A stretch of 64,000 nucleotides of DNA, from positions 62,001 through 126,000 of the forward strand of contig NPFB01000010.1 of the NCBI GenBank assembly GCA_014084085.1, read 5' to 3'. Origin of the DNA: Hondaea fermentalgiana. Taxonomy: Eukaryota; Sar; Bigyra; Thraustochytrida; Thraustochytriidae. A model generated the notes under the pieces. It worked only from the letters and a program-made list of their open reading frames with translations, had not been told where the DNA came from and did not search any database. The translations under genes and the position numbers were made by a program. Positions 52,417-64,000 of the stretch are shown in pieces (within the stretch, counting starts at the first letter, position 1; every line of letters starts with the position of its first letter).

Positions 52417-53134
52417 CGCTGCTCTTTGCCGCTCCGCCTCCTCGAAACGCGTCTTGGCGCACTCCTGCTGCGTCGCTGTGGCCTTCTCCTTCTCTCTCGC
52501 TCTCTGCCGCCTGCGCGCGATCGAGGTCCTCGCTGCTGGCGCCGCGAGTCTGTCCCCTCGCGCGACCAGAAAGAACTGCGCTCTGTCCTCGATGGGTGGC
52601 CGCCGCGCGGTCCCCTTCTCAAGTGAAGAATTCGCGCTCGCCGCAAGTCTTCATCGGAAACCCGAAAGTCAAGAATGGCCTCCATTCTCTACTTTCCCAA
52701 CATATATACGTAGTATCCCGAAAACAGGAACCGCGTGTGGCATTTTTAAGTGCCTTTATACCACCTCATTGGCCAGCCAGGTGGTGCCAGAACAAAAGAT
52801 TTTGGCATCGGTATGTTAAAGTGCCTTTAATGATGCTAAATAAGCAGGTGATACGAAATGACTATCAAATCGGTTATGCAAAAGGTTACAGACGTTACAC
52901 TACTCCGCTGTTTGTGGTGACCGAAGGTGGCTTCTGCTTCGAAAATGTGGCTTGATGAGGGCGAAGAGTTGCAATATTGTTATAGCGATGTAGACGCTGG
53001 GCTTCGAAGAACTGGCAAACGATGCCAAGTGACAAAATAGAGGTAATTGACGACTCAAATGTGTTGAATGAGCATGTAGCTGACATGCCACTCCCTTCGC
53101 ATGAGCTGACAAACGCCCTGGAGTGAACCTAACC
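52417..53134. other. Intergenic between SURF2-like start and transposase-like stop
   Basis: Includes the SURF2 promoter and the 3' side of the transposable-element-like gene. From about 52690 the base composition drops to AT-richer DNA. A hairpin CCACCT...AGGTGG lies at about 52761-52784. TTAAGTGCC and TTAAAGTGCC elements occur at about 52747 and 52816. I could not find the matching inverted terminus on the other side of the gene. No coding gene seen. Confidence 0.45.
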
Positions 53135-55150
53135 TCAAGACGCCTGTTTATGGTTATGAGAGCATGGTGTGCTTGCGCCAGAATGGACTGAAGAATGCGG
53201 TGTGCTTGTACCCGAATGATGTGGAGAGATATTTGGGGATCGGGCATGATGAGACAAGTTAGGGCGACGAAGAAATTTATCCTCGTGCCAATGTCGCCAG
53301 CAGGTCTTTTTCTGGTTTGTCGAGTGCCGCAACCTAACGTGGAGGACAACATTGCAGAAATCGCAAAGCCTTCGGGCTTTCTCTCCACAAACAACACACC
53401 TTCTCTGGGTGGTTTCAACCTCTGTATGGGCATTTCCGTGACTCAGTCGGAGTCTCTTTACACTCTTATCATTCGCAATGCTCATGATATCTCGCTTTTT
53501 GTCCGGGATCCTCAGCGTCAAGTGCTCAGCTTTGGTGATCCTGTCGGTAGTAAAACGAGCGTCATTGTCCTCGATCAGATGCCCAACACCGGCCGAGTTT
53601 TCGTGGTTGGTGATCCTGTTAGTAGTAGGATGAGCGTCATTGTCCTCGGTCAGATGACCAACAACGGCCAAATTTTCGTGATTGAGACCTGAACGGTGAC
53701 CCTTGAGTCTACTCGCTTCTGTAAGAAGACCAATCGCAACGTTTCGCAAGAATTTGGTAAAGGGATAGCTTCTTGAGCACTCTCGAAGGAATTTGCTCAA
53801 GCCGCACCGTTTGTTGCCAAGTTCATCCCTCGCAGTCTTGATCCTCCACACCATTAGCGAGTTGATAAGCACGTCGGTGATCAAACCAAGGACGACCTTC
53901 GCCTCCCGGCCTGTCTTTAGAGCGCGGTAGTCGAAGCGCTGCGAGTAGTCATCGATGCCACCCACCCCTTGCTTTGAAGCGCTGTAGTAAAACTGCACCA
54001 GCGAACGCGTCAACCGAACAGGTACAAAGACACCTGCTGATTTCAAACGCGCGTGATACGCGTTCCAGAGAGGAAGATGGGAGGCTATAGCCCCTCGGTC
54101 CTCCTCTTGGAAGGCATTGGGGATGGCTGACGGTAGTACGGGTGAGGTCGCGAAAGCCCAATTGAGGAATCGACACTCAACATCCTCGAATGCACGGAGC
54201 CATTGTTGTCGAACCTCCTGAGGGAAACGAACGAGGACTACGTACTCGACTGTTTTCGTGGTACCAATGCAAAAGACTCCAAAGTCGGAATCAAAAACGG
54301 CTGCCTGATGGAGAATGTGGCTACGAAACTCCGCTGGCACGGCCTCGAACCACTCTGACGAGCCCACGGTACACGAAAAGTACCGTCCAAACTTCCTGGA
54401 GACAGAGACAGATGTTGGGCGGTCAACTGTGCGCGTCGAGACCTTCGTCTTGATCTCAAGCGGCGCGATGATGCGCGCGGCAGTGCTAACTTCACCGGGT
54501 GGGCGAATGACGATAATGTTGTTGGCACTAACCCCGAGACCAGGCCTCCCCTTCTTCTGAACAAGGCCAACCTCGAAAACAGCGTCCACGAAGGTTTGTT
54601 CGCGCAATTGACGGACTATTCCAGACTCGTTTATGGTGCCAATCACCATCGCCCGGTTTGATTTGCTGCCTCCCTGTTTCTTGACATGGAACCACTCGGC
54701 GCAAAGCATCTTGCTGAGAACTTCTGACGTCAGTATCTTCGCAGGCTTTACACATGAAAGGTCCTTGTACAGAAGAGACCTGCACCCAGGGTCCTCCTTG
54801 GCAATACCTTGAGCTGCTGTACCAGTAACCATGAACTTTTTGAACATGAACCAATCTGCACATCGCTGACCTGCTGTCAAAGGTTTCACCGATGACAATA
54901 TGTGCGCCTCGACGTCTTCTCGCTGAGGAATCTCTGATTCAATGACCTTTCGCATTGCACTTGTTGGGGGCTCATTGGAAACGAAGTGCACGTCTACGAC
55001 ACTCCCGGGGTCAGCTCTGTCACCAGGGATATTTTGCACAGTGGTCCGGTGCTCTTCACGAGCTGCGATATCCTCCTCGGTACCGACTTCCAGAGAGGTC
55101 GTCAAAGCAGTATTCCCGCTCTCCTGGTCCTCCTCCCGGTCCTCGTCCTG

Positions 55151-55190
<40 letters not shown>

Positions 55191-57241
55191 CCATCCTCGT
55201 TTTCGTCGTCAAGGTGAATGTCTGCAAGACTTTGCTCATCAGAGCCGTATTCATCATATGGGAAGGACTTGAACGAATAGACCTGCCGGTTTGACGAGCG
55301 ACAGAGAGGGTAAAACAACATCGATTGTGCAACACGTTCAGTCACGCGACCATAGGACTTGAAGACGAAGGTGTTCCGAAAGGCCTCCTCCAGCTCTGAT
55401 GGGAGAATCGAGACAAAGCGATGAATATATGAACGATTCATGTCCCCGTGTTCACGAACAGCAAAAGCATGAGCAATGACCTCGGGGCAGTCGCTACCGC
55501 GACTTAGACCCTTCCTTGCAGCCAAAATCTCGCCACCAAGGTTCGGTGCATCCTCAACAACGAATTCCCTTTCAAGGTTGAGGTTCGCTGTGGACCATCC
55601 ACGCTTTGCGTAGCTAGCTCGTCGATCTTTGGAAGCAGTCTGCGACAGAAATGGATTTCCTTGTTGCCGCTCTGTCGAATTGAGCACAATAAGATCGAAA
55701 CCAAGCTTTGCGCAAAGTCTATAAAGAGCTTCCGAAGGGTAACCTCCGTCAAGGCAGACTTGAATCCCAGCAACATCACCGCTGTTGGCCTCCTTGATCC
55801 GGTTGAGAATGTTTTTTAGGACATCAACCTGGTTGCACTTGCGATCATAAAGCTGACTGAACAGCTTGACACGAAAGACAGCGTCTGCACTTGCAGCTGA
55901 GCCGGCGCAATTCTTGTACCGCTTGCGAGGACGATATGTATTGATTGGATTGCTTGTAGAGACAGTGCCACGGTTTCTGTCATCAATGATGATCCGAAGG
56001 CTCTTGTTGGCGAACAGTCGTAGCGAAACGCTGGCAAGTTTCTCTTCCAGAGGGTGCATCTTAGCGGCCATATCTGTCTCGTCCTCGTGACTGGAGGCGT
56101 TTCCTGAAGCCCGCAGAGAATAACCTCTGAGGTGTTTCAGCAAAATATTGAAGCAATTTAAAGAGAGAAGTGCCTCCGCACCGGGAAGCCTTCGCGTGTT
56201 CATGATCAATTGGATATCCTCCAAGGCTGTTTTCTTGTTCGTCTTGCATTGCCCTGTGAGCAACAGAAGCTGGGCAAGGAAGGCAAGGAACTCCCACTCC
56301 GTGACAACGGGGGTGACACCTGCAATTCTCATGCTCGTTTGCATTGAGCGAAGTAAATGATGTTGGGCTTCCGAACCCATAATGGCGAGGAAAAGTCTTG
56401 ACTCGCACCACGCCTGGTCGGTATTACCCTGTTCACGACAAAGGTTGTCGAGGTTGTTGACGATGGAATCAATGTGATGCTGGGCCATATCATCAACGCC
56501 GCAAAGCTCCACTGCTTCCTCCCGCGAAACGAGCTTCGGCAATTCCTGGCGCACCTTGGTCCAGGAACGGTGAAAGGCAGTTCCGGGTGCTCCTTGAGCT
56601 GAAGCTGTTGACGACGAAGGTGAAGTGGTTGGGGCCGTTGCAGATGAAGATGAGCTGGAGCCAAGGTTGGACGAAGCATTGTCAACGTTGGTATCGACCG
56701 TCAGGCTTGCTCGTTTTTCCGTGGCTGAAGACAACGCCTCAGCGTTTGCTTTACGTTTCTTATTCTGTAAGCAGTCCGAGTGGTTTGGACGCAAATGCCC
56801 AATCTGGTGACACGCGGAGCACCGCTTCATGCCTTTCATCGACGTGCTCTTCGGCTCACGTTCTCTGCGCCACTGGCCAGGTCGTGAGTGATGGTTAGAT
56901 GACGCTGGTTCGATGGACGCGCCAGGGTGCTGCTGCTCATAGCTCGCGCGTGAGCGCGGGGCTTGTATGGAGCTGGGTAGCTGTGCACAAAGGAAACGCC
57001 AGCCTAGACCGACGACACAAGCGACCTGCAGAAGCTTTTGCGCGCAGTATCGACCCCACGAACGCGTCTTGGTTCTGCTGTCAGAAAGGGCATCATCACT
57101 ATACCCAAAACTCAGCGAAATAGGCACGTCTGCAAGACCAGACCCAGTGGCATTGCACGTGTGGCAGATGTAGTAAGAGGCAAAATAGAGGGTTTTCAAG
57201 GCACCTACAGGGGAATATACAACATTTTTTAATAGAAGCAC
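53135..57241 (-). CDS. piggyBac-like transposase with inserted YqaJ-type nuclease domain
   Basis: An uninterrupted frame of 1368 residues; the likely true start is Met135 or Met138 (56839 or 56830), because the first 130 residues look untranslated. A CCHC-like knuckle CSACHQIGH...C is at 141-157. A helical N-terminal domain follows. A piggyBac/DDE-like catalytic domain is split. The first acid is D420/D421 in IIIDDRNRG; the second is D498 in VCLDGGYPSEALY. The third is D1097/D1098 in GGIDDYSQRFDYR, followed by LITDVLINSLMVW, as in piggyBac. Between the second and third lies a YqaJ/lambda-exonuclease-like domain (about 790-990): RCADW, GTINESG (E872), GVSANNI (905-908) and LEIK (E929, K931). 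The Asp expected in the SPDG-like motif is Asn here. An acidic Glu/Asp run (about 676-706) precedes it. A C-terminal Cys/His-rich zinc module (CVVC...CDFC...CWRHWH, 1282-1319) matches the piggyBac tail domain. Base composition is lower in GC than neighbours. Confidence 0.7.
53534..53683. repeat. Two tandem 75-bp in-frame repeats
   Basis: Units 53534-53608 and 53609-53683 in the 3' part of the transposase-like gene. Each codes for 25 residues of the form NHEN...VGHL-EDNDA...DRIT. A recent in-frame duplication between the catalytic region and the zinc module. Confidence 0.9.
55130..55205. repeat. CCTCGT hexamer array, in-frame
   Basis: Ten or more hexamers with a few variants, encoding the alternating Glu/Asp run of the transposase-like protein. 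Confidence 0.9.
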
Positions 57242-57523
57242 TACATTCTCAAGGTTACAAAGTCACTTTCCAATGCCTTTACAACCTATCTCGGGATGTC
57301 AGGCCCATTCTGCGCAACGCAAAATGCGAAAAAAAAAAAAAGCAAAACAAGAGAAAGCTGGCGTGTAAAACGGTCAAGTTGGAGAAGCAGCGGCGGCGGA
57401 CTCCTCGCAGCTCAACTCGGCCCTGGCAAAAGCTTGCAGAAGGCCGGCGGGTAGAATCCTAGGAGGGACGACGTTCGAGGTTGGCGGGCGACGCTCCCCG
57501 AGGAAGTTGCGAGAGAGGCAGTC
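57242..57523. promoter_or_regulatory. Divergent region, transposase-like gene / coiled-coil gene
   Basis: 282 bp between the two frames. If the transposase starts near 56839, this region also includes its 5' leader. A 13-A run lies at about 57328-57341. No element recognised. Confidence 0.4.
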
Positions 57524-61633: not shown

Positions 61634-64000
61634 ATGAGATCGTTGAGACGAGGACGGGCTCGCAGGCGGAGACCCGCGCTCACAGTGGCGCGAAGGGCGG
61701 CCAGCGAGGCGGACGAGGGGAGTGTAGCCGTCCACCATTCCGAAGTTGACGCGCCGGCGAACGTTGAAGATTGCGACTGGCTTGAGATGTCGAGCATCCA
61801 AGACAGGATTAGATACTTCAATATGAACGCGGCTCCGCAGCAACAAAGAGTCGTCAGAGACGCGGCTTCGCAGCGACCAAGAGCGAATAGAGTGGCCGCG
61901 AAATCGCGGAAGGATGCGGAAAACGTTGTTGTTCTGATCGTTCACGATCCCGAGGACAAAGCTGTGGCAGAGGAGTTCCTCGATACCATCCAGCCCAGCC
62001 TGGGTTTGCCTGTGCGCACCCTCAGCGAGGTTGCAAAGGTTCAGGAAGAACTTGAACCCAGGCCTCCCAGTGCTGTGGCAATGATAGTTAGCACAGCATT
62101 AGGAGAAAATGAAGCACTCGTCGAGGCAGTCGGCTGTAAATTGCCAAACGCACTTTTCCCAGTCGTTGTGGAAAGTTCCATGTTCGACCAAAAATTCTGG
62201 AGTAGCTCACTCAACTCCTATATGGCTGACGAGCTGTTCTTCGACTTTTGTGACGGTAATCAGGCCGATGTTCAGTGTTTTCTCAGCCATATCCGGGCAA
62301 GGGCAAAAGGTGAGAAGCCTGTCGAGAATTATGACGCCTTCATCTCACACGAGTGGGGTGTCGACCATCGAGTGCACAATCAAGCAAAGGAAATCAAAAA
62401 ACGCCTTGAAACGGATCATGACCTCAAGATATGGCTCGATGAAGGACAAGTGGAAGGATGCATTAATAGGAGCATGGCACGTGGAATTAACGATTCGAAA
62501 GTCTTTGTCGTCCTTGCAACCGAAAGATACATGAAAAAGGTAAATGATGGCGATAGGGCAGATAACTGCCTCAAGGAGTTCAGATACGCCGGAAAGCAGC
62601 GCTCTGACCGAATTGTGGTCGCTGCTCTGGAGGAAGAAATGACCAAGCCAAATACAGGATGGAGGGGGGAATTCCAGCTGAGTCTCTCGCGAACAAAGCC
62701 GGTTGTCGTCACATCTGTGGATGACAAGACTGTCGAGGACCTCGCTGACGCCATCCGCGAGCGTATCAATACACCGAAAACGTCGGCCGACCTGACACCT
62801 ATGATGCGTGATTTGAAAGGCAACTTGAAGCCGTGTAATTCCGAAGTGTGGGCCGAGGGTAAGGCGAAAAAATTCACTGTTGGGACAAGAAGCTGGATTA
62901 TCGACGAGCTGTGCAAGTGGTATGACAAGGGGAAATCTTCGGTATTCATCCTCGTAGGCGACGGCGGTGTCGGAAAGAGCGTTATCATGGCCGAGCTGTG
63001 TCGCCGTGGAGGCGCTCTCAATGTTGACAGTGACGGGGATGATGTCTCCAGACCCAAGGAGAGTGCTGCAAAAGAGCTTCGAAAGTCATTGCAAGTTCCG
63101 AAGCGATGGCGCCGAAGCAACAAGAACCGAACGCCCATTTATGTTGCAGCGTACCACTTTTTTCGACATGACGAGGGAAAAGCAACGCAACCAACGGAGT
63201 GCATGAAGAGCATTGCGTGGCAACTTTGTCTGACCGTGCCTGGTTATGCTGAGGAGCTTGAAAGGTTATCTCTCTCGAGCATTCGCGACTATACGCTGGC
63301 CGATCTTTTCAAGACTTTGCTTGTTGACCCTCTTCACAGCTTGGACCCCAAACAAGCGAGGCGAGGGAAGCAAGAACGACGACAAGTAGTTGTTCTCGAC
63401 GCTCTCGACGAGTGCAGTGAAAGCAGTGAGTTCCTGCGCAAAATCATTCGAACCTGGAAAGAGTCGATGCCCACGTGGCTAAGCTTGATCGTGAGCACAC
63501 GTCCTGAAGGCGACATCGAGCGAGGCGTCATTGGGAACAATCTGAATTATAAGGTTTTGGAGCTCAAGGATCGCGAGAACTTTCGCGACATCAAGCTGCA
63601 TATTGAGCATTTGCTGAAAGACATGAGCAACGTGGTGGACCTTAAGGCCGTGGAAAGGTGCGCCGCACTTTTGTCTGAACGATCAGAAGGTCTCTTTCTG
63701 TGGGCGAGCTTTCTGCGCAATACACTGGAGCGAATCCAAGAGGAGAACGGGGGTAAAATACTCACCTACGAGGATATTTCAAAGAAAGATGTCGTTCCTC
63801 ATGGGCTCAATGGCATGTTTGAATCATACTTTTCGCGCCTGCGAAACAAGATGGGCGGCCAAGAAGCATACCGCACACTCCTGACACCCATCGTGACAGC
63901 GCGCGAGCCACTGAGTGTTGAGCAAATCAGTGCGATTCTGGACGAGTCAAAGAACAAGACGAAACAGATCGTCGGAGATGCGCGTCACCTTCTCTACCGA
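61634..64000 (+). CDS. TIR-NACHT (NLR/STAND-type) protein, 5' part; truncated by the window edge
   Basis: The frame is open for 789 codons from the ATG at 61634 to the window end; the nearest upstream in-frame stop is at 61430-61432 and there is no earlier in-frame ATG. Residues about 95-225 look like a diverged TIR-type fold: VVVLIVHDPEDKAVAEEF, then LFPVVVESSMFDQKFW and a strand ending LFFDF. A clear TIR domain follows at about 232-375: DAFISHEWG (D234), IWLDEG, SKVFVVLATERYM, and DNCLKEFRYAG, whose E315 sits where NAD-cleaving TIRs have the catalytic Glu. A KFTVGTRSWIIDELCKW linker leads into a NACHT NTPase: Walker A GDGGVGKS (442-449), YHFFRHDEG, Walker B LDALDEC (588-594), and a STRPEGD sensor. 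The region past about 690 is winged-helix-like. STAND receptors of this type sense signals and oligomerise; the C-terminal repeat sensor lies beyond the window. Confidence 0.85.
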   Translation, partial: MRSLRRGRARRRRPALTVARRAASEADEGSVAVHHSEVDAPANVEDCDWLEMSSIQDRIRYFNMNAAPQQQRVVRDAASQRPRANRVAAKSRKDAENVVVLIVHDPEDKAVAEEFLDTIQPSLGLPVRTLSEVAKVQEELEPRPPSAVAMIVSTALGENEALVEAVGCKLPNALFPVVVESSMFDQKFWSSSLNSYMADELFFDFCDGNQADVQCFLSHIRARAKGEKPVENYDAFISHEWGVDHRVHNQAKEIKKRLETDHDLKIWLDEGQVEGCINRSMARGINDSKVFVVLATERYMKKVNDGDRADNCLKEFRYAGKQRSDRIVVAALEEEMTKPNTGWRGEFQLSLSRTKPVVVTSVDDKTVEDLADAIRERINTPKTSADLTPMMRDLKGNLKPCNSEVWAEGKAKKFTVGTRSWIIDELCKWYDKGKSSVFILVGDGGVGKSVIMAELCRRGGALNVDSDGDDVSRPKESAAKELRKSLQVPKRWRRSNKNRTPIYVAAYHFFRHDEGKATQPTECMKSIAWQLCLTVPGYAEELERLSLSSIRDYTLADLFKTLLVDPLHSLDPKQARRGKQERRQVVVLDALDECSESSEFLRKIIRTWKESMPTWLSLIVSTRPEGDIERGVIGNNLNYKVLELKDRENFRDIKLHIEHLLKDMSNVVDLKAVERCAALLSERSEGLFLWASFLRNTLERIQEENGGKILTYEDISKKDVVPHGLNGMFESYFSRLRNKMGGQEAYRTLLTPIVTAREPLSVEQISAILDESKNKTKQIVGDARHLLYR

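Follow-up and report, generated by a model that had tools for sequence, protein, structure and literature searches.

A piggyBac-like transposon copy with an inserted lambda-exonuclease/YqaJ-type domain in Hondaea fermentalgiana

The locus and its relatives

The DNA analysed here, referred to as the window, is a stretch of 64,000 nucleotides from contig NPFB01000010.1 of the thraustochytrid Hondaea fermentalgiana (positions 62,001 to 126,000 of the forward strand). Within it, at 52715-57297 on the minus strand, lies a 4583-bp element that resembles a piggyBac-type transposon and encodes, in one reading frame, a transposase-like protein into which a nuclease domain of the lambda-exonuclease/YqaJ type is inserted. 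The ends of the element, ATCCCGAAAACAGG and, as the reverse complement, ATCCCGAGATAGG, were placed from its terminal repeats and from DNA homology, running from 52714 to 57284, to a broken copy on C19. As the original prediction for this locus had stated, the frame is intact: it runs on the minus strand through 53138-57262, a total of 1375 codons with no stop. An ATG first occurs at codon 142 (56839), which together with the stop at 53135 defines a gene of 53135-56839 and a protein of 1234 amino acids (aa). Residues are numbered here from 57262 (residue 1), so that 7 must be added to the residue numbers of the original prediction, and its residues 1-134 fall upstream of the likely start.

All parts of the protein lie on the minus strand. 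It begins with a CCHC-type zinc knuckle read from the sequence, CSACHQIGHLRPNHSDC (residues 148-164; 56771-56821), and stretches resembling this knuckle are also present in the relatives P0002, P0006, and P0007. The first part of an RNase H-like catalytic domain occupies about residues 420-650 (55313-56005), with approximate limits set by a structure match to piggyBac 6x67. It is followed by an acidic, low-complexity linker (about residues 680-745; 55028-55225), recognized from its sequence and from low values of the predicted local distance difference test (pLDDT), and then by the YqaJ/lambda-exonuclease-like insertion at about residues 794-1042 (54137-54883), for which the trimmed alignment with 1avq extends to about residue 1060. 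The second part of the transposase, comprising the helix of the third catalytic Asp and a helical DNA-binding part, spans about residues 1053-1196 (53675-54106); its start is approximate, and its end is where the structure alignment with 6x67_C stops, at model residue 966, equivalent to residue 1196. A cysteine-rich zinc domain at about residues 1289-1327 (53282-53398), located by comparison of the family profile with piggyBat 9c0f_C, completes the protein. The linker that precedes this zinc domain contains a 75-bp tandem duplication whose copies are 85% identical (53532-53681).

Other copies with the same order of parts, which the original prediction had proposed to look for, are present in the genome. 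A search of all 36 Mb (238 contigs) with the window protein gave 29 matches, of which the two weakest (C158 and C173) are not counted as family members. The matches include six further long open frames (C153, 1223 aa; C91, 1173 aa; C206, 1210 aa; C102a, 1272 aa; C102b, 1296 aa; C47, 1076 aa), two broken copies (C19 and C207), and a fragment (C160). When 5.8 billion proteins were searched with a profile and the best 8000 candidates by common words were scored, at least six further proteins were found. A second protein search added P0007 and did not return P0003-P0005, which were members of its own query; the seven relatives from outside this genome are therefore a lower bound. The order of the parts is the same in the six other long frames and in the proteins from other collections. 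In those that are long enough (P0001-P0005 and P0007), the motifs IDDEL and DRGY, the nuclease motifs, and K-x-G-[IVL]-D-G follow one another in that order, and P0007, read by eye, has all of them. P0004 comes from Durusdinium trenchii, a dinoflagellate, and carries the annotation YqaJ domain-containing protein. Among viral contigs, 243 stretches fit the pattern, and none was confirmed as a relative.

A predicted nuclease domain within a piggyBac-type fold

In the predicted structure, the two halves of the transposase part assemble into one piggyBac-type RNase H fold, so that the original prediction passes the test by which it could have been refuted, and the helical DNA-binding domain of piggyBac is present as well. 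The model supports an insertion of the lambda-exonuclease/YqaJ domain after the second catalytic position of this fold and before the third. It is between these same positions that the insertion domains of DDE transposases sit. In piggyBac, however, just 101 residues separate the two Asp (D346 to D447), whereas the corresponding spacing in the window protein is 596 residues and holds a whole nuclease. The likeness to the piggyBac superfamily (piggyBac 6x67, piggyBat 9c0f; PF13843) is seen in the predicted fold of both halves, in the order of the Asp, and in the C-terminal cysteine-rich domain. From C1289 onward the window protein has the pattern C2-C2-H-C-H, in agreement with the zinc module originally proposed, and the profile of the whole family matches the end of piggyBat 9c0f_C (514-576) with an E value of 1.3e-5. 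The N-terminal zinc knuckle of the window protein, on the other hand, is a difference from piggyBac.

The inserted domain is predicted to adopt the fold of lambda exonuclease and its YqaJ/RecE-like relatives (1avq, 3slp, and LHK-Exo 3syy; PF09588, PHROG 434), from which it differs in being embedded in a transposase. All eight nuclease rows used in the PHROG scan, two of them shortened by hand, match PHROG 434 (RecE-like exonuclease; best 1.3e-7), and six of the eight match PHROG 149. When whole cores are compared with PHROG 434, C102a, C102b, and P0005 fall below 0.01. Matches to PF09588, all below its cut-off, have E values of 1 or less in 3 of 13 rows. Against PDB sequences the nuclease profile gives three matches in all, each weak (E 0.2-0.28): two mimivirus R354 sequences, representing a Cas4-like nuclease, and the alkaline exonuclease LHK-Exo. 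For the transposase part, the cut-off of PF13843 is passed by P0005 and P0006 and not reached by the window protein; C206 passes it in the genome scan, but as a protein scores 20.2 bits, below the 22.4 required. C102a and C102b pass PF01609.

Catalytic residues in the window copy and in its family

The catalytic residues were compared in an alignment of 13 rows (A5), in which P0006 ends before most of the nuclease motifs; C69, too distant and with its locus partly masked, and P0007, which is 77% identical to P0002, were omitted. The first two catalytic Asp columns of the transposase correspond to D427/D428 and D505 of the window protein (IDDELVGSRS and TADRGYS in relatives). Both are kept there, as D427, the first of the DD pair (55982-55984), and D505 (55748-55750). 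Ten of the 13 rows keep both (window, C206, C102a, C102b, and P0001-P0006), where the first Asp is counted as the first of the pair; C153 has just the second of the pair. In the third column, where relatives have the motif K-G-G-V-D, the window protein instead has Gly1101 (53960-53962; KQGVGGIDDYS). Eight of the 12 rows that cover this column have the third Asp (C206, C102a, C102b, and P0001-P0005), and it is also present in translated pieces of the pseudogenes C19 (KQRVDGIDDYS) and C207 (KQGVDGLDDYS). Because both of these pseudogenes have it, the third Asp is most likely ancestral and would have been lost along the branch leading to the window copy. The acids originally assigned to the catalytic core, D420/421, D498, and D1097/1098, thus hold for the first two positions, whereas the third pair (here D1104/D1105) lies 3-4 residues past the catalytic column.

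The nuclease has undergone a comparable change. The order E, S-x-D, E-x-K is that of the lambda exonuclease/YqaJ family, and intact relatives have it. In the window the site consists of E879, N914, E936, and K938. The motifs RCADW, NE (E879), and LEIK (E936 and K938) are present as first described, but what had been overlooked is that the S-x-D-G motif reads VSANN, with Asn914 (54521-54523) in place of the Asp of most relatives and of lambda exonuclease. Of the 12 rows that extend into the nuclease, 7 (C102a, C102b, and P0001-P0005) keep all four of its residues, and the same seven, of 12 rows that can be judged, have both active sites complete. C206 keeps its three Asp, but Lys replaces the first Glu of its nuclease. 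In C153, C91, and C47 catalytic residues are lost at both sites and the motifs are largely gone. On the tree, which has several very long branches, the losses of catalytic residues require two changes, so the dead copies do not form a single clade.

With Gly for the third Asp and Asn for the nuclease Asp, the window copy is probably inactive, that is, its sequence argues that it is neither a working transposase nor a working nuclease. The proposal of a transposase carrying its own nuclease is supported for the family, in which the seven complete rows are found, and not for the window copy.

Element ends, palindromes, and flanks

The left terminal inverted repeat, ATCCCGAAAAC (52715-52725), is identical to the C19 terminus; the right one (57287-57297) is partly decayed, and each has GT as its outer flank. 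In C19 (2672-4833 of L027) and C207 (2810-5045 of L026) the terminal repeats are perfect, and all three elements begin with ATCCCGA. Inside the repeats, at bp 15-44, palindromes that beat shuffled sequence are found in 4 of the 6 ends, namely both ends of C19 (scores reached by 8 of 1000 shuffles on the left and 11 of 1000 on the right) and both ends of C207 (0 of 1000 each). The corresponding sites in the window have decayed to background: the left one (52739-52754, bp 25-40 from the end, at the site of the strong C19 palindrome) is equalled by 750 of 1000 shuffles, and the right one (57259-57269, bp 29-39 from the end) by 264. As a control, 3 of 100 60-mers taken from window positions 1-50000 reach a score of 8, the lowest among the four strong ends. 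In piggyBac, the cysteine-rich domains bind as a dimer to a palindromic repeat at bp 17-33 (PMC7351741). The layout of the family's ends, with short terminal repeats followed by an internal palindrome (in C19 and C207), therefore agrees with the piggyBac affinity of the protein.

The original prediction had proposed to look for TTAA-flanked terminal inverted repeats. Short inverted repeats were found and TTAA flanks were not; the flanks in this family, unlike those of piggyBac, are ATAT or GT. Around CCCG...CGGG, both sides read ATAT in C19 and C207, and GTAT and ATGT in the window. These three copies allow two readings. In one, the repeats begin at CCCG and the duplication is the 4-bp ATAT, which agrees with C19 and C207 and fails for the window; in the other, the repeats begin at ATCCCG and the duplication is 2 bp, which fits all three (AT/AT, AT/AT, and GT/GT). 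Given the absence of a TTAA duplication and of the third Asp, the window element is not classified as a canonical piggyBac element.

A search for copies with 187 bp of the left end and 197 bp of the right end found just C19 besides the window. With 2 or fewer mismatches allowed, a 15-bp pattern from the termini matched at 29 places, against 31 for the reversed control, and was rejected as chance; two of these matches, C1 and C187, have one mismatch. Within 2 kb of C153, C91, C206, C102a, C102b, C47, and C69 there is no pair of terminal repeats like that of the window family. C102a has a perfect 15-bp inverted repeat (L024, 2956-2970 and 7096-7110), within 180 bp of its 1272-aa frame on each side, with flanking bases that do not match; it may represent the terminal repeats of another subfamily.

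Other related sequences in the genome

A more distant, second lineage is found on C69 (L029, 3800-7282). Its nuclease region is related to that of the family (hhalign probability 97.9% over 200 columns), and a search with this copy returned just its own gene model, FCC1311_021772 (99-100% identical in three stretches). Further matches to the C69-type lineage lie on C203 (L031, 3944-4492), C154, and C182 (L043); in the C203 fragment a nuclease-like stretch leads into a canonical GGVD motif. A relative on C72 (L042), interrupted by an assembly gap, bears KGGADGSTHF and the zinc domain, and the 5521-aa frame reported for it was rejected as an artefact of Ns.

The genome also contains plain piggyBac-like proteins with no recognized nuclease, C189 (L038) and C24 (L039). 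One of the two has a full-length match to PF13843 (104 bits) and, by eye, lacks the first two catalytic Asp motifs; these proteins are possibly domesticated genes. C189 aligns only weakly with the family (59%, helical domain alone). A stand-alone YqaJ protein, C183 (L040, contig about 47707-48087), has a 305-aa frame, a strong match to YqaJ (92.8 bits), and by eye a coiled-coil-like N-terminus; its alignments with the family are weak as well (probability 4.2 and 0.5%). One other sequence, CVVCGTNARIAC..., was remarked in passing.

Interpretation of the window copy

Taken together, sequence comparison and modelling establish a predicted composite fold, a constant order of parts, terminal repeats, palindromes at the level of the family, and relatives in which both sites appear complete. 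The explanation that we consider very likely is that the element at 52715-57297 represents one old copy of a piggyBac-type transposon with a built-in lambda-exonuclease/YqaJ domain, that this copy is probably immobile and non-cutting, and that it is either slowly dying or kept by the host as a DNA-binding protein. Several points weigh against this explanation. The model of the window protein is of moderate quality (predicted template modelling score, pTM, 0.49; 430 of 1145 residues below pLDDT 50), the alignments used for structure prediction were eight sequences deep, and the structural re-alignment took just the top-ranked chains from Foldseek. By itself the window protein passes no Pfam cut-off; PF09588 stays below its cut-off in all family rows scanned (best 16.2 bits, in P0003, against 22); and PHROG 434 is matched by the window core at an E value of 0.074 and is unmatched by C153, C91, C206, and C47. 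No TTAA duplication was found in the flanks of the three copies with ends. Inactivity is read from single residues, and the adjoining D1104/D1105 could in principle replace the lost Asp. Finally, the role of the nuclease in transposition is hypothetical.

The original prediction also held that the open frame must be recent or under selection, and the comparison with C19 gives this modest support. The window copy and the C19 pseudogene differ by 6.2, 8.4, and 14.0% at codon positions 1, 2, and 3 and by 12.0% in non-coding sequence; over 403 codons the rate of nonsynonymous change (dN) is 0.072 and that of synonymous change (dS) 0.200, for a dN/dS of 0.36. When changes are polarized with C207 as the outgroup, those specific to the window number 4, 3, and 10 of 180 sites at the three codon positions and 4 of 47 non-coding sites, and those specific to C19 number 3, 5, and 8 of 180 and 0 of 47. 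The excess at position 3 has a nominal Fisher p of 0.034 on the window branch (10/180 versus 7/360 at positions 1 and 2) and is not significant on the C19 branch (p 0.18). In simulated drift of 1234 codons without indels, the frame was still open in 40 of 2000 runs at 3.1%, the rate of the window branch, in 283 of 2000 at 1.5%, and in 1 of 2000 at 6%. These sequence data favour some selection, part of which could be explained by selection on active ancestors.

We give an even chance to a decaying transposon copy that has no present function and whose frame is open by chance; single catalytic residues have been lost in both sites, the palindromes and in part the right repeat have decayed, and both sister copies, C19 and C207, are now pseudogenes. 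Yet the window copy has acquired neither a stop nor a frameshift, despite carrying as many specific coding changes as C19 (17 and 16, respectively, of 540 sites), and C19, by contrast, has stops and large deletions. A second explanation, which is possible and which we put forward tentatively, is a domesticated host gene: its protein would have lost catalysis, and selection would maintain it for the sequence-specific binding of DNA through its knuckle, helical part, and C-terminal zinc domain. Its 1234-codon frame is open even though the termini have decayed, drift at 3.1% or 6% seldom leaves such a frame open, and both the dN/dS relative to C19 and the concentration of window-branch changes at codon position 3 speak for such a gene; in addition, C153, C91, and C47 maintain their long frames after losing the residues of both sites. 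A low dN/dS, however, may reflect selection on active ancestors before insertion, drift at 1.5% leaves a fair number of frames open, and the branch counts, with 17 window-specific coding changes, are small. We describe the window copy as a degenerate, possibly domesticated, member of a lineage that is piggyBac-like and carries an exonuclease insertion.

The original version, in which the protein is an intact, working transposase-nuclease that uses D1104/D1105 as its third acid, now appears improbable. It can draw on the intact frame, on the retention of the first two Asp and of the nuclease E and E-x-K, and on the presence of the same DD pair in C19 and C207, but in the catalytic column the window protein has Gly, where 8 of 12 rows and both of the closest pseudogenes have Asp, the nuclease Asp has become Asn, and the ends of the copy have decayed. 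That two separate genes were fused by misassembly, an objection raised at the outset, is exceedingly improbable: no supporting point was found, and the identical order of parts in six other frames and in relatives from independent assemblies rules it out.

Known systems, possible mechanism, and significance

The nearest precedents for a transposon that carries an exonuclease are Dada and ISL2EU. Dada, described as a superfamily of its own that targets small RNA genes, has an inserted DEDDy 3'-5' exonuclease, which its authors proposed to process the cleaved 3' ends (PMC3706591). The exonuclease that occupies the corresponding stretch of Dada is a different one, in that the window nuclease matches the lambda-exonuclease fold. 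ISL2EU resembles the window element in being a DNA transposon that encodes a YqaJ exonuclease, but this exonuclease is a separate, second open reading frame that accompanies a Harbinger-like transposase (PMC4482050, PMC9179366); the window element has a single frame that holds both domains, and its transposase part matches piggyBac. No description of a piggyBac transposase with an inserted YqaJ domain was found in titles and abstract openings among the matches listed, a scope that leaves out subscription papers and Repbase reports.

In the working relatives, the transposition cycle may be that of piggyBac. The helical and cysteine-rich domains would pair the two ends, and the piggyBac-type part would carry out excision through hairpins, followed by integration. 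As part of that complex, the nuclease might trim or resect 5' ends; it would act either on the short 5' flap that the transposon ends bear as they integrate or on the broken donor site. In the second case, resection would bias repair toward a sister or homologous copy and so would lead to a gain in copies. A broader proposal, which at present we regard as rather doubtful, is that a distinct piggyBac-type lineage, which has captured a lambda-type 5'-3' exonuclease inside its transposase, is present in marine protists (a thraustochytrid and a dinoflagellate at the least); as part of the transpososome this exonuclease would act on ends that are excised or belong to the donor, target choice would be other than TTAA, and several dead copies, among them the one in the window, would have been kept as DNA-binding proteins.

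The wide use of piggyBac in genome engineering stems from the fact that repair of its excision site can leave no footprint (PMC7351741). A naturally occurring enzyme of the piggyBac type that has an exonuclease fused to it would test how the processing of ends steers both donor repair and the choice of target. As a further case of a DNA transposon that carries an exonuclease, beside Dada and ISL2EU, this family would turn the question of why transposons want an exonuclease into one that comparison can test.

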